The position numbers were made by a program, and so were the translations under genes. 35,181 nucleotides of DNA, from the IMG/VR virus record IMGVR_UViG_3300043436_001194, positions 1 through 35,181 of that record. The stretch is one strand, 5' to 3'. This stretch comes from a virus. Below the pieces are notes generated by a model. The model was not told the DNA's origin, did not search any database, and saw only the letters and a list, made by a program, of their open reading frames with translations. Of the stretch, positions 2,146-19,117 are shown piece by piece; position 1 is the first letter of the stretch, and each line of letters starts with the position of its first letter.

Positions 2146-2544
2146 ATGAAACAAACAAACCTTTTTGGTCAAGAGTTTGCGCCAAATCAAGATGAACAAA
2201 AATATTCATCAAAGATTGAAGCCCCAATTTATGAGCCTAAAAACGCCAAACCGCATTTGCTAGAGTTAGTTGATAAGTCTAAAACTCATAGGCTTATTAA
2301 GGAAATCGATGCTTCTTCTTTATCTTATGAAGAAAAAAATTTTTTAATAGATGCAGCAAAAAGGCATAGTGTTTTTAATTACGAAAAGATTGCCGACTAT
2401 TACGCTCATTCTAATAAAGAAATGCAGCATTTAATGGAAAGAAGCGCACTTGTAATAATAGACTTTGAAAAAGCTATTCAATATGGATATGTAAAACTTT
2501 GTGATGAAATTCGTAAACAATACCTTGAAGATTATGGAGAATAA
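2146..2544 (+). CDS. Conserved-looking phage protein of unknown function
   Basis: 132 residues. After a polar N-terminus (1-35), residues about 40-125 form a helical domain with F-N-Y-E-K-I-A-D-Y-Y-A-H and S-A-L-V-I-I-D-F-E-K-A-I motifs. I associate this arrangement with small proteins near DNA-modifying enzymes in phages, but cannot name a family. Its end overlaps the start of the DNA glycosyltransferase-like gene by 11 bases, so the two are probably made together. A role with that enzyme is inference. Confidence 0.6.
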   Translation: MKQTNLFGQEFAPNQDEQKYSSKIEAPIYEPKNAKPHLLELVDKSKTHRLIKEIDASSLSYEEKNFLIDAAKRHSVFNYEKIADYYAHSNKEMQHLMERSALVIIDFEKAIQYGYVKLCDEIRKQYLEDYGE

Positions 2545-3364
2545 AGATTTTGCTGTTTTTATATTAACACATGGTAGACCAGATAATGTAAAAACATTAA
2601 GCACATTAAAAAAATGCGGCTATACTGGTAAAATTTATTTTATTGTAGATAATGAAGATAAAACAATTGAGCAATATAAAAATAATTACGGAATAGAAAA
2701 TGTAAAGATATTTGATAAAAAAGCAATGGCAGATAAGGTTGATGAAGGAAATAATTTTGATAATAGAAAAGTTATAATACACGCTAGAAATGCTTGTTTT
2801 GAAATTGCAAAAGAATTAGGTATTACTTATTTTGTACAATTTGATGATGATTATTATTATTTTGGTTATAGATATTTAACTGGTGCTAAAATCATAAAAA
2901 ATATAAATGCCGTTTTTGATGCAATGTTAAAATTTTATAAATCAACTAATATAAAATCAATTTGTTTTTCGCAAGGTGGAGATCATATAGGTGGATTTAG
3001 TGGTATTAAATTAAAACGAAAAGCAATGAACTCTTTTTTTTGTTCTACTAATAGACCTTTTCAATTTGTAGGTAGTATAAATGAAGATGTAAATACTTAC
3101 ACTTCATTAGGTTGTAAAGGAGATTTGTTTTTTACTTTTACAAATATACAACTTGATCAAAAAGACACACAAACAAACAAAGGCGGTATGACCGATGAAT
3201 ATGCTTTGACTGGAACTTATGTTAAATCATTTCATAGTGTATTAATGCACCCTAGTGGAGTAAAGATATCAATGATGAACGCAAACAATATAAGACTTCA
3301 TCATTCTATTAAATGGGTTAATACAACTCCAATGATATTAGACCAAAAATATAAAAAGATATGA
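2534..3364 (+). CDS. TET-associated-type glycosyltransferase (TAGT-like)
   Basis: 276 residues from ATG 2534. An upstream in-frame ATG at 2501 would add 11 residues inside the previous gene, and the family-like start M-E-N-K-D-F-A-V-F favours 2534. Motifs of the GT-A-fold TAGT family: F-I-L-T-H-G-R-P-D-N at 9-18, I-V-D-N-E-D-K-T at 37-44, H-A-R-N-A-C-F at 83-89, Q-F-D-D-D-Y at 102-107 (metal/nucleotide-sugar binding), Q-G-G-D at 147-150 and G-G-M-T-D-E-Y at 217-223. In other phages such enzymes transfer sugars onto hydroxymethylated bases in DNA, often beside a TET/JBP dioxygenase. No dioxygenase is seen here. The gene is visibly more AT-rich than its upstream neighbours, suggesting separate acquisition. 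Family is fairly sure; substrate is unknown. Confidence 0.75.
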   Translation: MENKDFAVFILTHGRPDNVKTLSTLKKCGYTGKIYFIVDNEDKTIEQYKNNYGIENVKIFDKKAMADKVDEGNNFDNRKVIIHARNACFEIAKELGITYFVQFDDDYYYFGYRYLTGAKIIKNINAVFDAMLKFYKSTNIKSICFSQGGDHIGGFSGIKLKRKAMNSFFCSTNRPFQFVGSINEDVNTYTSLGCKGDLFFTFTNIQLDQKDTQTNKGGMTDEYALTGTYVKSFHSVLMHPSGVKISMMNANNIRLHHSIKWVNTTPMILDQKYKKI

Positions 3365-3552
3365 TGACTAAACAATGCTCACGCTGCAAGGTAGTGCAGC
3401 CAACAACAAACTATTACAAAAACCCAAACACAGCGGATAAGATTGGGGCTTATTGCAAACAATGCCAAAAGGCGGTAAGCAATAGGCACGATAGACAATA
3501 CCAAAAGCAAGTTGTATATTTTGAATGGGATGTAAAAAATGTAACTATATGA
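3361..3552 (+). CDS. Small CxxC/CxxC zinc-binding protein
   Basis: 63 residues. C-S-R-C near 6-9 and C-K-Q-C near 32-35 form a four-cysteine zinc ribbon like the N-terminal finger of many HNH-associated phage proteins. The rest is basic (N-R-H-D-R-Q-Y-Q-K) and could bind DNA. The start overlaps the glycosyltransferase stop (ATGATGA); ATG 3364 is an equally good start. It overlaps the nuclease gene downstream by 28 bases. It may be a free-standing finger or the remnant of a larger HNH protein; no HNH residues are present. Confidence 0.6.
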   Translation: MMTKQCSRCKVVQPTTNYYKNPNTADKIGAYCKQCQKAVSNRHDRQYQKQVVYFEWDVKNVTI

Positions 3553-4046
3553 AAGATTGGAAAGAAAGATATTGCAATGCACATGAGGAAATGAGTAAAA
3601 TAAAATATGCTCAAGGATATGCGGATGGACATTATTCCGCTCCTATTATACCCAAAGTAAAAACTGCCAACGGATTAACAACTTTTTGCGCTAATTACAT
3701 CAAATGGACTAATGGACATTTAGAGCGAACTAATAACATGGGAGTTCCCGTAAAAAAGAAGATACCGAAATTCAATATATTTAGTGGCAAATTAGAACAA
3801 TTGGATGGCGGCATTGAATGGCGCAAAGGCACTGGCTCAAAAGGCACAAGCGATTTAAAAGGGCATATAGTTACTCCAAATCATAAATATGGTTTGCCTG
3901 TTTATATTGAAATAAAGATTAATGATAAGCAAAGCGAAGATCAGAAAGAATATGAACGCAAGATAAATTCAACAGGCGGATTATATGCGGTAGTGCATAA
4001 CCCGCAAGAATTTTTTAGTTTTATTGATTATGTAATGAGTTTATAG
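3525..4046 (+). CDS. VRR-NUC-like PD-(D/E)XK nuclease
   Basis: 173 residues. The C-terminal 80 residues carry the nuclease signature in order: G-T-S-D-L-K-G (107-113, catalytic Asp110), V-Y-I-E-I-K (126-131, Glu129 and Lys131), a conserved Gln140 and G-G-L-Y-A-V-V (151-157). VRR-NUC proteins cleave branched DNA such as Holliday junctions. Here it probably resolves replication or recombination intermediates before packaging. The N-terminal 95 residues are unrecognised; the first codons include C-x-x-C (3-6). ATG 3549 is an alternative start that removes the overlap with the preceding gene. The promoter of the small structured RNA lies at its 3' end. Confidence 0.7.
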   Translation: MGCKKCNYMKDWKERYCNAHEEMSKIKYAQGYADGHYSAPIIPKVKTANGLTTFCANYIKWTNGHLERTNNMGVPVKKKIPKFNIFSGKLEQLDGGIEWRKGTGSKGTSDLKGHIVTPNHKYGLPVYIEIKINDKQSEDQKEYERKINSTGGLYAVVHNPQEFFSFIDYVMSL

Positions 4047-4054
4047 TATATTTG
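4024..4054 (+). promoter_or_regulatory. Bacteroidota-type promoter before the structured RNA
   Basis: TTG at 4024-4026, a 20-base spacer and a perfect TATATTTG at 4047-4054 match the -33/-7 consensus of the Bacteroidota primary sigma factor. The -7 box begins immediately after the nuclease stop codon. Transcription should start around 4058-4062, which is 27-31 bases before any ATG and about 90 before a terminator hairpin. Confidence 0.75.
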
Positions 4055-4157
4055 TACAACGGTTCATATATTTCGTTCGAGGTGATATATGAATTTATTG
4101 TTTAACAAACGCAAGTTAAACATAGCCCCTTCTCTCGAACAGTTGGGGCTTTTTAAT
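4055..4157 (+). ncRNA. Candidate small structured RNA with kissing loops
   Basis: Three hairpins fill the gap between promoter 4024-4054 and the HNH gene. H1: 9-bp perfect stem 4063-4071/4085-4093, 13-base loop. H2: 8-bp stem 4099-4106/4115-4122, 8-base loop. H3: AGCCCC/GGGGCT 4124-4129/4145-4150, 15-base loop, followed by T-rich sequence. The H1 loop GTTCGAG (4075-4081) is the exact reverse complement of CTCGAAC (4134-4140) in the H3 loop, so a seven-pair kissing interaction is possible (eight with a G-U). The ATG at 4089 lies inside the H1 stem. It could be a trans-acting small RNA, a cis antitermination element or a leader. No known RNA family was recognised. Confidence 0.6.
4124..4157 (+). 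terminator. Terminator hairpin ending the small RNA
   Basis: Stem AGCCCC (4124-4129) / GGGGCT (4145-4150) is followed by TTTTAATTTT. It shares the AGCCC...GGGGCT stem ends with the terminator at 13378-13407. It stands between the promoter at 4024-4054 and the HNH coding region from 4161. Confidence 0.65.
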
Positions 4158-4160
4158 TTT

Positions 4161-4760
4161 ATGGAATGTTATAATTGCAAAAGCAAAAATTTAAAAATAA
4201 ACACAATAGGCAGATATGATGCTTATTGTTGTAAAGATTGCGAGTATTCATCTATTGTGCAAAATCAATGTTGTTCACATCAAAATAAAATATTTGTAAG
4301 AGTTGAGCAAGGACAAGGAGTTGTTCAAAGAACAGCTTGTAATAGGTGTAAACATATTTTTGGAACGGCAGTAAAAAAAGATGCAAATTTTTACAAATAC
4401 CCATTGGTTACATTAGAAAGACATTTGCAAATAAAGGAATTAGACGAATCATGTTATACAATGATTTCCGATTGGGTTAAATGTAACTTAGAAAAGTATA
4501 TACAAAAAAAACAATTTGAAAGTCAAAAAGAAAGTATAGAATGGTGGAATATGTATAATAAATATCTTTTAACGGAAAAATGGAAGGAAATAAGAAAAAA
4601 AGTATTAGAAAGAGATAATTATATTTGTCAAGGTTGTTTAAAAAATAAAGCAGTACAAGCACACCATTTAACTTACAATAACGTTACAGACGAACTACTT
4701 TTTCAATTAATTTCCGTTTGTTTAAGTTGTCATAATAAATTACATAAAGATAAAATATGA
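4161..4760 (+). CDS. HNH endonuclease with N-terminal zinc fingers
   Basis: 199 residues from ATG 4161. The open frame extends to ATG 4089, but that part runs through the RNA hairpins and terminator, and C-x-x-C right after M-E is a typical protein start. Zinc-ribbon cysteines lie at 3/6, 23-27 and 60/63. The HNH core is at the C-terminus: W-K-E-I-R-K-K-V-L-E-R-D (about 141-152), C156-x-x-C159, H168-H169, C187-x-x-C190, H191, N192 and H195. Such enzymes nick or cut DNA and are common as free-standing homing or packaging-associated nucleases in phages. The gene is more AT-rich than its neighbours, fitting a mobile element. Its stop overlaps the primase start (ATGA). Confidence 0.8.
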   Translation: MECYNCKSKNLKINTIGRYDAYCCKDCEYSSIVQNQCCSHQNKIFVRVEQGQGVVQRTACNRCKHIFGTAVKKDANFYKYPLVTLERHLQIKELDESCYTMISDWVKCNLEKYIQKKQFESQKESIEWWNMYNKYLLTEKWKEIRKKVLERDNYICQGCLKNKAVQAHHLTYNNVTDELLFQLISVCLSCHNKLHKDKI

Positions 4761-7024
4761 ACATAAACACATTTAAAGAACTTGTTGCACTAGGTTTAAA
4801 GCCTTTTCCGATTAAATGGGATGAAAACGGCAAAGTAGCATCAAGCCATATAATAGCCCATAGCACTATAACCGAATCCGATTGGAATGAAACAACATTA
4901 GACCAATGGGTAAGTTTAATTGATAACGCTAACGGTATTGCTTTAAAGCTATTCCCGCCTTTTGGCACTATTGACTTTGATACTAAAAACGAAAAAGGAA
5001 CGGTATCTTTTGAAGATTGGTTTAAGATAATTGAAGCAACCGACCCCGACATATTGCGCAAAGTATGTATTGAATCAACAAGAAACAAAGGGTATCATGT
5101 TTATATTAAGTATCCTAAACTTACCCATAAAATAACCCTTGCGGCAAGTGAAGAAGGGCGCGAAGTTATTGCCGTTTATACGGGTGGGTTACTTTCTTAT
5201 TGTAGCCCAACGCCAGGATACGATATGTTTCATAATTCTTTTGAAGATTTAGAAGAACTTACTAATGATGAATACGATTTACTTACTTCAACGGCTTCTT
5301 TATTTAACAAGTTTAAAGAAGAAATTAATAATACATTTACCCCCGTTGAATATCCGCAACAATATGAAACTACTTGTTTGTTATTTGATAAAGAAATTAC
5401 AGATGATGCCTTTGAAGAACTACTAAATCAAATGAGCCTTTATGAAGCTAGAGATTTTAGATACCGTACCAAGCAAAAGTTTACGGCATACTTAAGGCGT
5501 GGATCAAATACCAACTATTCCGCGAAGGTTTATTTTAGTTCTAAGAAAGTATTGCTTTTTACAACTTCAATTCCTGGTTATCCTTCTTGGGCAGATTGCA
5601 AAGGCGCGGGAGATAAATCATGGGTACTTACACCTAGTAGGATTATTTACTATAAAAATAAACGTGATTGGATAAAAACAATAGAAGAAATACAAATTAT
5701 TGCCGATAGTATTGGCATTGAATTAAACCAAAAACCAATTGAGGAAACACCGATAGCAAAAGAACGTACCGAGTTCCCGTATGATATATTCCCCGATGCT
5801 ATACAAGATTACATTAAGGCGCATAAAATACAAAACGAATACATTGCAGGTTTTATGCTTTCGGCATTATCTACCGCAATTGGCAACACTTGTTACCTTG
5901 AAGCCTTAGACGGTTATAGATTACGCACTAACCTTTACATGGCTATTGTAGCCCATGCAGGTGGTGGTAAAAGCCCCGCAATGAAGATAGCATACAAATA
6001 CCTACAAGAAAAAGACAACGAGGCATATAAGGCTTATCAATTAAAACAAGCCGAGTACTTACAAGAAATGGCTTCACTTGATAAAAAAGAAAAGTCTAAA
6101 CTACCTAAACCAATATTAAAGCAAAGCATTATAAACGATGCAACAATGGAAACGGTTATTCATGTTTTGCAATACAATCAAAAAGGGTGCTGCCTAGTTG
6201 CCGATGAACTTGCAGGGTTTATGAAACGCATGAGCCAATACAAGGATGGTGATGACACCCAAAAGTGGTTAGAAATGTGGGATAGTTCCCCCGTTCTTCA
6301 ACAACGCATAACCGCCGAAGATCGTAAACTTTCCGATTATACTATTGGAATAGTTGGCGGCATACAACCTGGAATTATAGATGTACTTAGTAGTAAGGAT
6401 AACCAATTCAATGGGTTTTATCATAGGTTTTTATTTGTATTCCCCGAAACAGAACCTAAACCATCATTTGAGGCTATTTATTGCCCCGAACATATAAAGC
6501 AAGAAGTAAACGCAATATTTGATAAATTAATATTACATAGAGATAATGAAGTTAAAACAAAATACACATTAAGCCCCGATGCATTAAGCCTTTATAAGCG
6601 TTGGCATGACTATAAAAATATGTATTACAATAGAACCTTAGACGAAAACGCAAAGGGTATCATTGCCAAATATCAAGCCTATTGCTTAAGGTTTGCACTT
6701 ATCATTCAATGTTGCGATGACCTTACTAACCGTAGTGGTATAATAGAACAACAATCAGTAGAACGTTCAATAAGACTTACCGAATACTTTTTAGGTAATA
6801 TGCTAAAGAGCCTAAAATTACTTAGCCCCGAAACGCCTATCGATGGTCTTAAAGCACCTTATGATAAGATTTATCGTGAATTAGAAGTTATGTTTAGCAC
6901 TAAAACGGCTATTGAAATAGGCGCAAAATATGGTATAAAAGCACCTACTTTAAAAATGTGGCTACTTAATAAGCGGGATTTATTCCAACGAAAAGAACAT
7001 GGTAACTACGAAAAGCTGCTTTAA
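4757..7024 (+). CDS. Primase-polymerase/helicase (Prim-Pol + DUF3987)
   Basis: 755 residues. An N-terminal Prim-Pol-like domain shows the catalytic D-F-D pair (G-T-I-D-F-D, Asp73/Asp75) and the G-Y-H-V-Y motif (His114). The C-terminal half matches DUF3987: Walker A A-H-A-G-G-G-K-S around 399-406 and Walker B C-C-L-V-A-D-E around 478-484, then G-F-Y-H-R-F typical of this ATPase family. It probably synthesises primers and unwinds DNA, the central replication protein of a genome lacking its own DNA polymerase; host polymerase would extend. A terminator overlaps its stop codon and a repeat-rich origin candidate follows. DUF3987 proteins with such primase domains are frequent in Bacteroidota mobile elements. 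Confidence 0.85.
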   Translation: MNINTFKELVALGLKPFPIKWDENGKVASSHIIAHSTITESDWNETTLDQWVSLIDNANGIALKLFPPFGTIDFDTKNEKGTVSFEDWFKIIEATDPDILRKVCIESTRNKGYHVYIKYPKLTHKITLAASEEGREVIAVYTGGLLSYCSPTPGYDMFHNSFEDLEELTNDEYDLLTSTASLFNKFKEEINNTFTPVEYPQQYETTCLLFDKEITDDAFEELLNQMSLYEARDFRYRTKQKFTAYLRRGSNTNYSAKVYFSSKKVLLFTTSIPGYPSWADCKGAGDKSWVLTPSRIIYYKNKRDWIKTIEEIQIIADSIGIELNQKPIEETPIAKERTEFPYDIFPDAIQDYIKAHKIQNEYIAGFMLSALSTAIGNTCYLEALDGYRLRTNLYMAIVAHAGGGKSPAMKIAYKYLQEKDNEAYKAYQLKQAEYLQEMASLDKKEKSKLPKPILKQSIINDATMETVIHVLQYNQKGCCLVADELAGFMKRMSQYKDGDDTQKWLEMWDSSPVLQQRITAEDRKLSDYTIGIVGGIQPGIIDVLSSKDNQFNGFYHRFLFVFPETEPKPSFEAIYCPEHIKQEVNAIFDKLILHRDNEVKTKYTLSPDALSLYKRWHDYKNMYYNRTLDENAKGIIAKYQAYCLRFALIIQCCDDLTNRSGIIEQQSVERSIRLTEYFLGNMLKSLKLLSPETPIDGLKAPYDKIYRELEVMFSTKTAIEIGAKYGIKAPTLKMWLLNKRDLFQRKEHGNYEKLL

Positions 7025-7039
7025 TTAGCGGCTTTTTTT
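7013..7039 (+). terminator. Terminator overlapping the primase stop codon
   Basis: Stem AAGCTGC (7013-7019) / GCGGCTT (7028-7034), seven pairs with one G-U, encloses an 8-base loop that contains the TAA stop. A run of seven T follows at 7033-7039. It closes the early operon. Confidence 0.8.
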
Positions 7040-7046
7040 ATGTCTT

Positions 7047-7363
7047 AAAAGTAAATTCGGTTTTTTACTTTGGCACAAAAAAATTTACTATTTTCATCAT
7101 ATATAAATTATTTATAATGAATAAAAGTAAAAAGTAAAATAAAAGTAAAATCGTTTTTTTACTTTCTAAACGATATTACCATGTTGAAAATCAAATAGTT
7201 ATATCTAAAAAATAGCCAAAGTAAAAAAGTAAAGCCGTTTTTAGTGAATAGTAAAAAAGTAAAGAAAAACATAAGATATTTAAAAACATTATTATTATAT
7301 ATAATATAAGGGTATAGGCTTACTTTTAAATATTTATGGCAAAATGAATTTACTTTTTACTTT
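7047..7363. repeat. AT-rich iteron/palindrome array, candidate replication origin
   Basis: The largest non-coding stretch. The 9-mer AAAAGTAAA occurs at 7047, 7123, 7130, 7141, 7225 and 7255, with inverse TTTACTTT at 7064, 7158 and in tandem at 7350-7363, and an unfinished copy near 7218. Two 25-base imperfect palindromes are near identical, 7047-7071 and 7141-7165 (AAAAGTAAA-wTCGk-TTTTTTACTTT); 7225-7249 is a degenerate third copy keeping the central CG. An extremely AT-rich segment (7285-7310) follows. Repeats of both orientations next to the primase/helicase gene are typical of origins. Binding sites for a transcription regulator of the sigma-like gene are an alternative, since the last repeats enter its first codons. 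Confidence 0.5.
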
Positions 7364-12595: not shown

Positions 12596-13222
12596 ATGTG
12601 GAATAAACTAACCGTAAGACAAGCGCAAGAAATAGATAAACTAAGGCGCAAAGTAAGCAAAGAATACACCGAAGCCGATGTAGATACCGAACTATTGGCT
12701 ATCATTAAAAACGTGCCTGTATCCGTAATAGATAGCATGAAGTGGGTGGACTTTGTAGAAGCTAGAAAAGAACTTGTATTTTTAGAAAACGAACCCAAAG
12801 GAAAGCCCGTTAATTACATTAAAATAGGAAAACGGGCTTATAGAATGGTTTACGATATTAGGCAAATGCCTTTTGCTCGTTACATTGAGGGTAAAACCTT
12901 TGCACAAGACTTTGTTGCTAATTTACATAAGATAGCCGCAACAATGGTAATACCACAACGCAAAACATGGTTTAGGTGGGTAGATGACAAGTACGATGCG
13001 GCAAAGCATGAAATATATGCTAACGATATGCAACAAGCACCATACGAGGCTATTTATGCAAGTACGGTTTTTTTTTGCAATCTATTCAAGAATTGGATAA
13101 TAGCTTCAAAGGACTTTATGATAAACGAGTTAGCGAACAAGGGGATGACAAAAGAGGAAGCCGAAAAGCAGGTGAACGATTTATGCAAGTATTTGGATGG
13201 CATTACACCGCAGAGCAAATAG
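12596..13222 (+). CDS. Tail assembly chaperone, short form (gpG-like, putative)
   Basis: 208 residues in the zero frame. The N-terminal part (L-T-V-R-Q-A-Q-E-I...L-L-A-I-I-K-N-V-P-V...M-K-W-V-D-F-V-E-A) has the layout of tail assembly chaperones. A perfect slippery heptamer T-TTT-TTT at 13069-13075 lies in frame after codon 158, and the open frame at 13075-13338 lies in the -1 frame, the arrangement of lambda gpG/gpGT. Slippage would give a 247-residue product. The zero-frame tail after the slip (about 161-208) is Lys/Glu-rich. It is near the terminase rather than between the tail tube and tape measure genes, although tail genes follow. Function is inferred from frameshift logic and context. 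Confidence 0.6.
   Translation: MWNKLTVRQAQEIDKLRRKVSKEYTEADVDTELLAIIKNVPVSVIDSMKWVDFVEARKELVFLENEPKGKPVNYIKIGKRAYRMVYDIRQMPFARYIEGKTFAQDFVANLHKIAATMVIPQRKTWFRWVDDKYDAAKHEIYANDMQQAPYEAIYASTVFFCNLFKNWIIASKDFMINELANKGMTKEEAEKQVNDLCKYLDGITPQSK
13069..13075 (+). promoter_or_regulatory. -1 ribosomal frameshift slippery site
   Basis: Nine T (13068-13076) contain T-TTT-TTT in the register needed for simultaneous slippage: the zero frame reads TTT (13070-72) and TTT (13073-75), and after slipping continues TTG-CAA-TCT in the -1 frame. The -1 frame is then open to 13338. The homopolymer could also be a sequencing-length error, which would fuse the frames permanently. Confidence 0.6.
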
Positions 13223-13338: not shown

Positions 13339-13349
13339 TTGTATATTTG
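13319..13349 (+). promoter_or_regulatory. Bacteroidota-type promoter before the tail operon
   Basis: TTG at 13319-13321, 20-base spacer, perfect TATATTTG at 13342-13349. Geometry is identical to the promoter at 4024-4054, again placed right at the end of a gene. Transcription should begin near 13354-13357, about 22 bases before a terminator hairpin and about 90 before the next gene. Confidence 0.75.
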
Positions 13350-13377
13350 TTTTTTAGATCATGGTTTGTTTTTTGTT

Positions 13378-13407
13378 AGCCCTTTGTTTCTACAAGGGGC
13401 TTTTTTT
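13378..13407 (+). terminator. Terminator directly downstream of the promoter
   Basis: Eight-pair stem AGCCCTTT (13378-13385) / AAGGGGCT (13394-13401) with one G-U, 8-base loop, then seven T. It would stop transcripts from the promoter at 13319-13349 after roughly 50 nt, and also those reading through from the terminase genes. It implies a tiny RNA or a read-through (antitermination) switch. Confidence 0.75.
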
Positions 13408-17375: not shown

Positions 17376-19117
17376 GTGAGATAATAGGTTTAAAAATTGT
17401 TGTTGATGGTCAAGAACGAGTAGTTAAATCTACTGGAGAGATTCGCAAAATTTTAAAAGAAGCGCAATTTGAAGCTATTGCCTTGTCCCAAAAGTTTGGT
17501 GAAACATCTAAAGAGGCGTTAGATGCTGCTAAGAAAGTGGCATTAATGAAAGACCAAATACAAGACACTAGTGAAAGGATTGGTTTATTCGATCCAGGTA
17601 AAAAGTTTCAAGTATTTTCTAATTCAATTTCTGCCGTTGCAGGTGGGTTTACTGCACTACAAGGTGCTATGGGTTTATTTGGCGCAGAAGCGGAAAACGT
17701 ACAAAAATCTTTATTAAAAGTACAAAGTGCTTTAGCTTTATCGCAAGGCTTATCTACAATAACAGATTCAGCAAAAGACTTTCAAAGGTTAGCTGGTGTA
17801 ATTAAAACGCAAGTAGTAACCGCATTTTCAACTTTAAGAGGTGCAATTATAGCAACAGGTATAGGTGCGCTTGCGGTTGGTTTAGGTTTACTTGTAGCAA
17901 ACTTTGAGGCGGTTAAAAAAGCGGTATTAAGCGCAATTCCTGGTCTTGAAACATTTGGCAAATGGATAGGAAAGACAATTGATTCAATAACCGATTTTGT
18001 AGGTGTTACAAGTGAAGCTAGTAGGGCATTGGATGAACTTACAAAAAGCACTATTGCAACAAACAAGTCTTTGGATTTTTCTATTAAATTATTAGAAGCA
18101 CAAGGCGGTAGAGAAGCAGAGGTATACGAACTTAAAAAACAAAGGATTGAAAATGAAAGAAAACTTTTATTAGAGCAGTTAAAAATTAAAGGCGATTTAG
18201 ACGATAAAGAACGTGATGCACTATTAAATTTAAATGCAGATTTAGCGGTATTGGATGAAACAGAAAAAAACAGATTAAAGAAAAAATCAGAAGATGACGC
18301 AAAAGAGGCATTTGAAAAACAATTAGAAAGAGAAGCCGCCCAACGTGCAGCACTTGATAAGCAATATGAAATAGAATTAGAGGCTTACAATAAACGCAAG
18401 GCGTTAAGAGGTAAAGAGCAGCAAGAAAACATTGATAGTTATAAAGGTTTATCAGAACAAAGAGCAGAACAAAAAGCCATTGAAGATAAAAAAGCAAAAG
18501 ATGATGCAGAACTTTTACTGCAAATGCAAAACTCTGCTTTAGGTAAAATGCTAGAAGCCAATGCCGCGGCTGGTGCTAAGAAATTAGCAGATGACAAAGC
18601 AAATGCAGATGCAGGAAAGCAAATTGCAAAAGCCGAATCGGATGCTAAAATTGCATCTTTACAAGCAACTGCGGCAGCAATAACAAGTTTGTCAATGTTG
18701 GCTGGAAAAGAAACTACGGCAGGTAAAGCATTGGCAGTTGCCGCTTCTTTGATTAATACTTATGCCGCGATTGCAGGGCAATTAAGAGCAAGTACAAGCA
18801 GCCCTGCGGCAGCTATTCCAGGTTGGGCTATTGCTCAAGCTATTGCAACAGGTATTGCTGGTCTTGCTGCGGTTAAGCAAATTGTATCGGTTCAAGTTCC
18901 TGGCGGTGGGGGTGGCGGCTCTGTACCATCTGCGCCTAATTTAAACGCTGGTTCACCGCTTCAACCAAGTACAATTGCAGCAAATCAAGTAACACTTGAC
19001 CAACGTAGTATTAACGCAATGGGCAATAGAGCAATAAAGGCTTATGTAGTAGAAACCGAAATAAGTAGCGCACAACAAAAGATTAGAAGGATACAAAAGC
19101 AAACAACCTTTGGATAA
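17372..19117 (+). CDS. Tail tape measure protein
   Basis: 581 residues, Ala/Lys/Glu-rich and mostly helical. Two hydrophobic stretches lie near 155-180 (G-A-I-I-A-T-G-I-G-A-L-A-V-G-L-G) and 455-500, and a long charged coiled-coil segment at about 245-400. The C-terminus is Gly/Pro/Ser-rich (G-G-G-G-G-S-V-P) and then polar. Tape measures fix tail length at roughly 1.5 angstrom per residue, so the tail would be near 87 nm. The hydrophobic parts may help DNA pass the host envelope. Head genes start right after it, an unusual order. Confidence 0.85.
   Translation: MSEIIGLKIVVDGQERVVKSTGEIRKILKEAQFEAIALSQKFGETSKEALDAAKKVALMKDQIQDTSERIGLFDPGKKFQVFSNSISAVAGGFTALQGAMGLFGAEAENVQKSLLKVQSALALSQGLSTITDSAKDFQRLAGVIKTQVVTAFSTLRGAIIATGIGALAVGLGLLVANFEAVKKAVLSAIPGLETFGKWIGKTIDSITDFVGVTSEASRALDELTKSTIATNKSLDFSIKLLEAQGGREAEVYELKKQRIENERKLLLEQLKIKGDLDDKERDALLNLNADLAVLDETEKNRLKKKSEDDAKEAFEKQLEREAAQRAALDKQYEIELEAYNKRKALRGKEQQENIDSYKGLSEQRAEQKAIEDKKAKDDAELLLQMQNSALGKMLEANAAAGAKKLADDKANADAGKQIAKAESDAKIASLQATAAAITSLSMLAGKETTAGKALAVAASLINTYAAIAGQLRASTSSPAAAIPGWAIAQAIATGIAGLAAVKQIVSVQVPGGGGGGSVPSAPNLNAGSPLQPSTIAANQVTLDQRSINAMGNRAIKAYVVETEISSAQQKIRRIQKQTTFG

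Follow-up and report, generated by a model that had tools for sequence, protein, structure and literature searches.

Kissing antisense RNAs, such as ColE1 RNA I/RNA II, interact through U-turn loops. The plasmid replication leaders of IncI-alpha ColIb-P9 repZ and IncL/M repA reportedly fold into loop-loop pseudoknots, and pT181 is said to use an antisense attenuator. The element described here lies in a 35,181-nt viral contig (the whole stretch of DNA analysed, hereafter the window), which carries tailed-phage genes and has its main genes on the + strand. It resembles repZ, repA and pT181 by architecture, being a structured leader before a replication gene in which the pairing sequence of the loops differs between replicons. 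It differs from the repZ type in that it is a phage element with a Bacteroidota-type promoter, that antisense TAnnTTTG promoters are not enriched among the matches listed, and that a terminator-like hairpin with a U-tract supplies the second pairing loop. With ColE1 RNA I/RNA II it has in common fully paired 7-nt loops and words starting with GU, as a U-turn would give, but here both loops belong to one transcript.

Two phage RNAs are also comparable. The HK022 put RNA (~70 nt) consists of two stem-loops, contacts the beta' zinc-binding domain and suppresses downstream terminators (PMC9378689). As for putL and putR (PMC9378689), the present element directly follows a phage promoter, is of similar size, is made of stem-loops and occurs at most twice per genome; unlike them, it has kissing loops and a terminal U-tract and is found also 5' of single endonuclease genes, while any contact with the polymerase is putative. 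The phi29 packaging RNA is likewise a phage RNA with two complementary loops (PMC7357161); its pairing, however, is intermolecular, spans 4 bp and serves the packaging motor, whereas here 6–10 nt are paired upstream of replication genes. Finally, a survey of structured RNAs in the human microbiome includes, in its main text, Bacteroidetes candidates near phage genes, some of them predicted terminators (PMC8040213); that main text mentions no pseudoknot, and the present element may overlap with those candidates.

Results

Anatomy of the element

The promoter, the hairpins and the 7-nt loop match of the original prediction were all found in place (Table 1). The arms of hairpin 1, TTCATATAT and ATATATGAA (4063–4071 with 4085–4093), enclose a 13-nt loop, hairpin 2 is formed by TGTTTAAC and GTTAAACA (4099–4106 with 4115–4122), and the terminator-like stem AGCCCC/GGGGCT (4124–4129 with 4145–4150) is followed by TTTTAATTTT. 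GTTCGAG, in the loop of hairpin 1, is exactly complementary to CTCGAAC, in the loop of the terminator-like hairpin. Unconstrained folding retrieved all three hairpins (−29.3 kcal/mol, z = −4.15 versus 200 shuffles) and made GUUCGAG and CUCGAAC exact 7-nt loops, fully complementary to each other, both loops being mostly unpaired in the fold ensemble. A shared complement of at least 7 nt was obtained in 173 of 200,000 shuffles of both loop sequences (0.09%); the chance of such a match is therefore low, as had been proposed, and lower than the 0.4% estimated at that time. Each of the two words occurs only once within the 35-kb window, and a second kissing element, looked for in the window, was not found. 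A simple terminator scan admitting loops of up to 8 nt did not call the terminator-like hairpin.

Table 1. Features of the kissing-loop element and its surroundings in the window.
Feature	Position	Strand	Basis and remarks
Upstream gene, 173 aa, phrog_824, function unknown	3525..4046	+	PHROG; 97–98% identical in L026–L030
−33-region hexamer TTGATT	4024..4029	+	sequence; weak
−7 promoter element TATATTTG (TAnnTTTG)	4047..4054	+	abuts the TAG stop of the upstream gene; same position in relatives
Leader RNA body	4059..4158	+	fold and relatives; 5' end placed a few nt after TATATTTG from promoter geometry
Hairpin 1	4063..4093	+	9-bp perfect stem (12 bp in fold); compensatory changes in relatives
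Kissing strand 1 GTTCGAG, loop of hairpin 1	4075..4081	+	sequence, fold, relatives
Hairpin 2	4099..4122	+	8 bp; sequence, fold, relatives
Terminator-like hairpin AGCCCC-UU-CU-[CUCGAAC]-AG-UU-GGGGCU	4124..4150	+	sequence, fold
Kissing strand 2 CTCGAAC, apical loop of terminator-like hairpin	4134..4140	+	sequence, fold, relatives
U-rich tract TTTTTAATTTT, reaching the start codon	4150..4160	+	sequence; TTTTATTTTATG recurs in relatives
Downstream gene, 199-aa HNH endonuclease	4161..4760	+	PHROG HNH families; no Pfam match
Next gene, DUF3987 / PHROG DNA helicase-primase (replication)	4757..7024	+	domain and PHROG matches

The −7 element is a perfect match to TAnnTTTG, the −7 promoter consensus reported for Bacteroides (PMC7366714). 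When scored by sigma-70 rules alone the promoter is unremarkable (9/12), with 11 such sites in 3 kb against 14.6 in shuffles. In the window and its relatives, TAnnTTTG lies no more than about 35 nt 5' of hairpin 1. Thus, of the element's own promoter and terminator claimed at the outset, the former is retained as a dedicated promoter and the latter as a 3' hairpin that, judged by its sequence, is terminator-like.

Using Rfam 15 at gathering score, no family match was found in the window, in 27 related loci or in 6 cultured-phage loci, the only hits being two tRNAs, and a permissive Rfam search of the window element gave chance-level matches only, in agreement with the earlier statement that it matches no known RNA family. 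A description of the element was not found in the open-licence literature text searched.

Other hairpins in the window and related contigs were recorded. At 13342–13401 of the window, a terminator-like hairpin with U-tract follows a TATATTTG promoter, and a kissing partner was not found. The identical loop TTTCTAC, with U-tract, is carried there and by terminator-like stems of unrelated sequence in contigs L161 (~18755–18781), L178 (~1767), L191 (~12773 and ~12843) and L193 (~13060–13084), all likewise lacking an identified kissing partner.

Relatives and covariation

The upstream gene is shared, at the identity given in Table 1, with five IMG/VR contigs. Two of them (L026 and L027) have the same leader as the window, with hairpin 1 and both loops altered together (ATTGCAG/CTGCAAT), and the other three (L028–L030) have an entirely different leader behind the same promoter, with loops GGTAGAAG/CTTCTACC. 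Loss of complementarity beside the conserved flanking gene was looked for in these contigs and not seen, since the loops change in concert. Further leaders at the same place came from a set of 13 contigs with the DUF3987 gene and then from a set of 38 retrieved by DUF3987 profile.

Across 21 curated elements, 6–10 nt of the hairpin 1 loop are perfectly complementary to a segment of the terminator-like hairpin, and the own-loop complementarity summed over them is 157 nt, compared with at most 112 in 100,000 re-pairings. The alignment of the window's own sub-type (A2) showed seven pairs with double-sided change, three of which in the kissing helix (0/500 shuffles). Hairpin 2 is found in this sub-type (L026, L027, L032) and is missing from most others. 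Linkers measure 13–32 nt in nearly all members, and U-tracts are well formed in most of them, though poor in some (L032, TTAATTTTTT; L174, TTTACTTTAAAA). Contigs or phages with two leaders (Flavobacterium phage tooticki, i.e., L456, and L166, L173, L192, L341 and L432) use different kissing words for each.

An early descriptor scan gave results no better than its reversed-sequence control (32 versus 56 matches) and served only to propose candidates; the support comes from re-pairing, from the alignments and from the scan free of any kissing condition described below. Covariance models of two sub-types retrieved no match in 395 Bacteroidota genomes each, a result that shows little without a positive control. 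Some candidates were discarded: a 15-mer from the loop region hit 24 viral contigs, all by chance in unrelated sequence; a hit to the terminator in Xanthomonas phage RiverRider proved to be an ordinary hairpin with no kissing partner; and the hits of the conserved sub-type C motif in bacterial genomes were chance matches.

Pattern scan of IMG/VR

IMG/VR was scanned for promoter, spacing and U-tract plus ATG, without demanding loop pairing, and at least 95 distinct elements were retrieved. Among the matches listed, a complement of at least 6 nt was detected by script in 76/95 and of at least 7 nt in 66/95; for the latter threshold, controls gave 2.9% with loops swapped between elements and 3.0% with shuffled loops, i.e., about 3 expected of 95. 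Fourteen of the 19 elements with less than 6 nt by script were judged complementary by eye, so that the 90/95 of the listed matches counted as members include a manual step; the five non-members are L343, L376, L408, L413 and L419. In an alignment of 17 scan sequences from the matches listed (A6), double-sided changes were observed in all 7/7 pairs of the kissing helix, and the whole structure contained 76 double-change cells against 20.6 when shuffled and 6–11 when slid. The compensatory changes that the original prediction looked to as a check are thus present in the kissing pairs of both alignments.

The words ATGCGAC/GTCGCAT were found with sides exchanged (L352, L364, L387, L421, L440 and L447 versus L359, L366, L368, L369 and L383), as is expected if only complementarity matters. 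Together with GTCGGAT, these loop sequences recur in different phages among the matches listed, and 41/76 kissing words begin with GU. The window and its relatives thus share perfect, covarying complementarity of at least 6 nt between loop 1 and the 3' hairpin loop, and we are confident both of the structure and of the assignment of the window element to a large family of phage leader RNAs.

Neighbouring genes

In the window, the U-tract runs into the ATG at 4161 of the 199-aa ORF. Among the matches listed, the ATG following the U-tract opens an ORF in 90/90 members, the ORF being at least 40 aa long or running off the contig, the search having already demanded the ATG but not the ORF. The downstream products of the listed members fall into 23 clusters, and the representatives scanned are mostly replication-initiation, DnaD or primosomal-like proteins and HNH endonucleases, along with helicases; the leaders found earlier sit 5' of HNH, GIY-YIG, ParB-like and DUF3987 genes. 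The sequence upstream of the start codon of the genes downstream of a leader is U-rich, and A at −3 is present in 29% of these genes versus 60% in a set of 220 other genes from these phages. In Flavobacterium, initiation benefits from an A at −3 and from low structure (PMC6847099). The hairpin ends about 8–16 nt before the AUG in 17/21 curated members, and the AUG is 21–27 nt from the hairpin in a few members.

Two further features of the window were noted. The region 3' of the DUF3987 gene (7025–7343) is an AT-rich gap with repeated AAAGTAAAA-like units, possibly origin iterons, and a TET-associated glycosyltransferase (PF20691) encoded at 2501–3364 suggests modified DNA bases in this phage.

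Cultured phages

Unannotated copies of the element were found in the Flavobacterium phages 11b, elemoA, elemoD, tooticki (two copies) and filifjonk, as well as in Olleya phage Harreka_1 and Cellulophaga phage phi19:3. For the Flavobacterium phages (11b, elemo and Muminvirus), elements are located at AJ842011 33621 and in MT497075, MN812240 and NC_048831. The annotated replication protein lies a short way downstream of the element in most of these phages; in 11b the genes that follow are of unknown function, and copy 1 of tooticki precedes a NUMOD4 endonuclease. Tooticki and filifjonk have flanks 93–95% identical and differ by a block containing the endonuclease with its own kissing leader (L456 2555–3421 versus L461), this leader being separate from the replication leader. 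No match was found in a whole-genome scan of Bacteroides phage B40-8, nor in the few kb examined of Tenacibaculum phage JQ and Porphyromonas phage 005b. Since the cultured carriers infect Bacteroidota, these data support a putative host of this phylum for the window phage.

Discussion

The element travels with single genes, lies between the promoter of each and its start codon, and conserves nothing but the complementarity within itself, so that a cis-acting leader is the simplest explanation. Its action as a conditional terminator or attenuator, gating the replication operon or the endonuclease cassette, is the reading we put forward, at about even confidence. Indeed, no intergenic TAnnTTTG was found in the window between the element and the DUF3987 gene, hence RNA reaching this gene from the element's promoter or from one further upstream must cross the hairpin, and this forced passage favours a conditional terminator.

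The anatomy, the conserved pairing with its covariation, the promoter and start-codon context and the gene association are read directly from the sequences compared; from them we infer the transcription start, termination, the order of folding, the direction of the effect and any trans-acting signal. Transcription would begin just after the TAnnTTTG promoter, and hairpin 1, being at the 5' end, would fold first. Once the 5' arm of the terminator-like hairpin and its loop have been transcribed, this loop would pair with hairpin 1 before the 3' arm is made, and the finished RNA would be a loop-loop pseudoknot holding the terminator-like hairpin and the U-tract at the start codon of the replication or endonuclease gene. 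The locked fold would then set the balance between stopping at the U-tract and read-through into the replication operon or the endonuclease cassette; given the position of the hairpin before the AUG, translation may be affected as well. The kissing lock may be opened or closed by a factor acting in trans, of phage or host origin. Some aspects agree less with this proposal: the kissing helix and the terminator stem appear compatible with each other, so that no obvious two-state switch is visible; the poor U-tracts of some members fit a pure terminator role badly; and the unfavourable start-codon context is equally consistent with control at the level of translation.

A leader acting in cis on translation, with the kissing pseudoknot 5' of the AUG promoting or blocking ribosome entry as in ColIb-P9 repZ, is in our opinion unlikely. 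The short distance between hairpin and AUG in most curated members, the U-rich start contexts in which the A at −3 favoured in Flavobacterium (PMC6847099) is scarce, and the replication-initiator genes common downstream among the matches listed would all be accounted for. It is less easily reconciled with the U-tract, a hallmark of terminators and well formed in most members, with those few members having a more distant AUG, and with the opposite strand, where antisense promoters are not enriched (12 observed versus 13.2 shuffled for the 90 members among the matches listed, counting only TAnnTTTG-type sites). The original prediction had considered a trans-acting small RNA. In such a reading a free, stable RNA of about 95 nt would act on host or phage targets, and its proximity to the next gene would reflect nothing more than tight packing. 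We abandoned this as the main reading, and hold it quite unlikely, because in 90/90 members among the matches listed the U-tract leads into an ORF start, mostly replication or endonuclease genes lie downstream, and loops differ within a genome. The partner of each loop is always within the same element, GTTCGAG and CTCGAAC are found nowhere else in the window, loop sequences change freely and can exchange places, as ATGCGAC/GTCGCAT do, the endonuclease cassette has its own copy and genomes with two elements use different loops; all this outweighs the dedicated promoter, the terminator-like end, the hairpin at the extreme 5' end and the compact fold that such an RNA would have, and the recurrence of GTCGGAT, ATGCGAC and GTCGCAT across the phages listed, which could mean shared targets.

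The comparison with HK022 put RNA, also made at the outset, is kept as a functional analogy, while membership in put is not supported. A nascent RNA that stays on the RNA polymerase to suppress the terminators further along the early or replication operon is improbable to a high degree here, although the element shares with putL the placement, size and stem-loops described above, lies immediately after its promoter with a presumably early timing, has two copies in some genomes and, in several sub-types, has complex internal loops that would fit a protein contact. Put RNA consists of two polymerase-touching stem-loops without loop-loop helix or terminal U-tract (PMC9378689); moreover, single endonuclease genes need no long-range antitermination. 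As for the number of hairpins, the window has three in about 100 nt and many relatives have two, the loop-loop helix being additional. A multimeric RNA formed by pairing between the loops of different molecules, on the model of phi29 packaging RNA, is scarcely credible: linkers of 13–32 nt in nearly all members allow intramolecular pairing, the element precedes replication and not packaging genes, and genomes with two elements have different loops in each. Every element is nonetheless self-complementary via its two loops, and the shorter linker that hairpin 2 leaves in the window's sub-type might put strain on the intramolecular pairing.

Returning to the cis-acting conditional terminator, structured leaders and attenuators are already known, whereas a widespread phage family in which a hairpin kisses a terminator-like hairpin appears to be new. 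We tentatively propose, with somewhat less than even confidence, that these elements represent an undescribed and widespread RNA class of Bacteroidota phages, in which a 5' hairpin would lock the terminator loop and control the entry into replication, the loops diversifying so that each copy pairs only with itself. In phages of Bacteroidota, dominant in many gut and aquatic communities, the timing of early and replication genes is hardly known. It becomes directly testable through an RNA device that recurs where the replication operon begins and is available in cultured phages of Flavobacterium, Olleya and Cellulophaga, and the dozens of natural loop pairs would be useful to understand how termination or translation is tuned by loop-loop contacts in non-Shine-Dalgarno bacteria.
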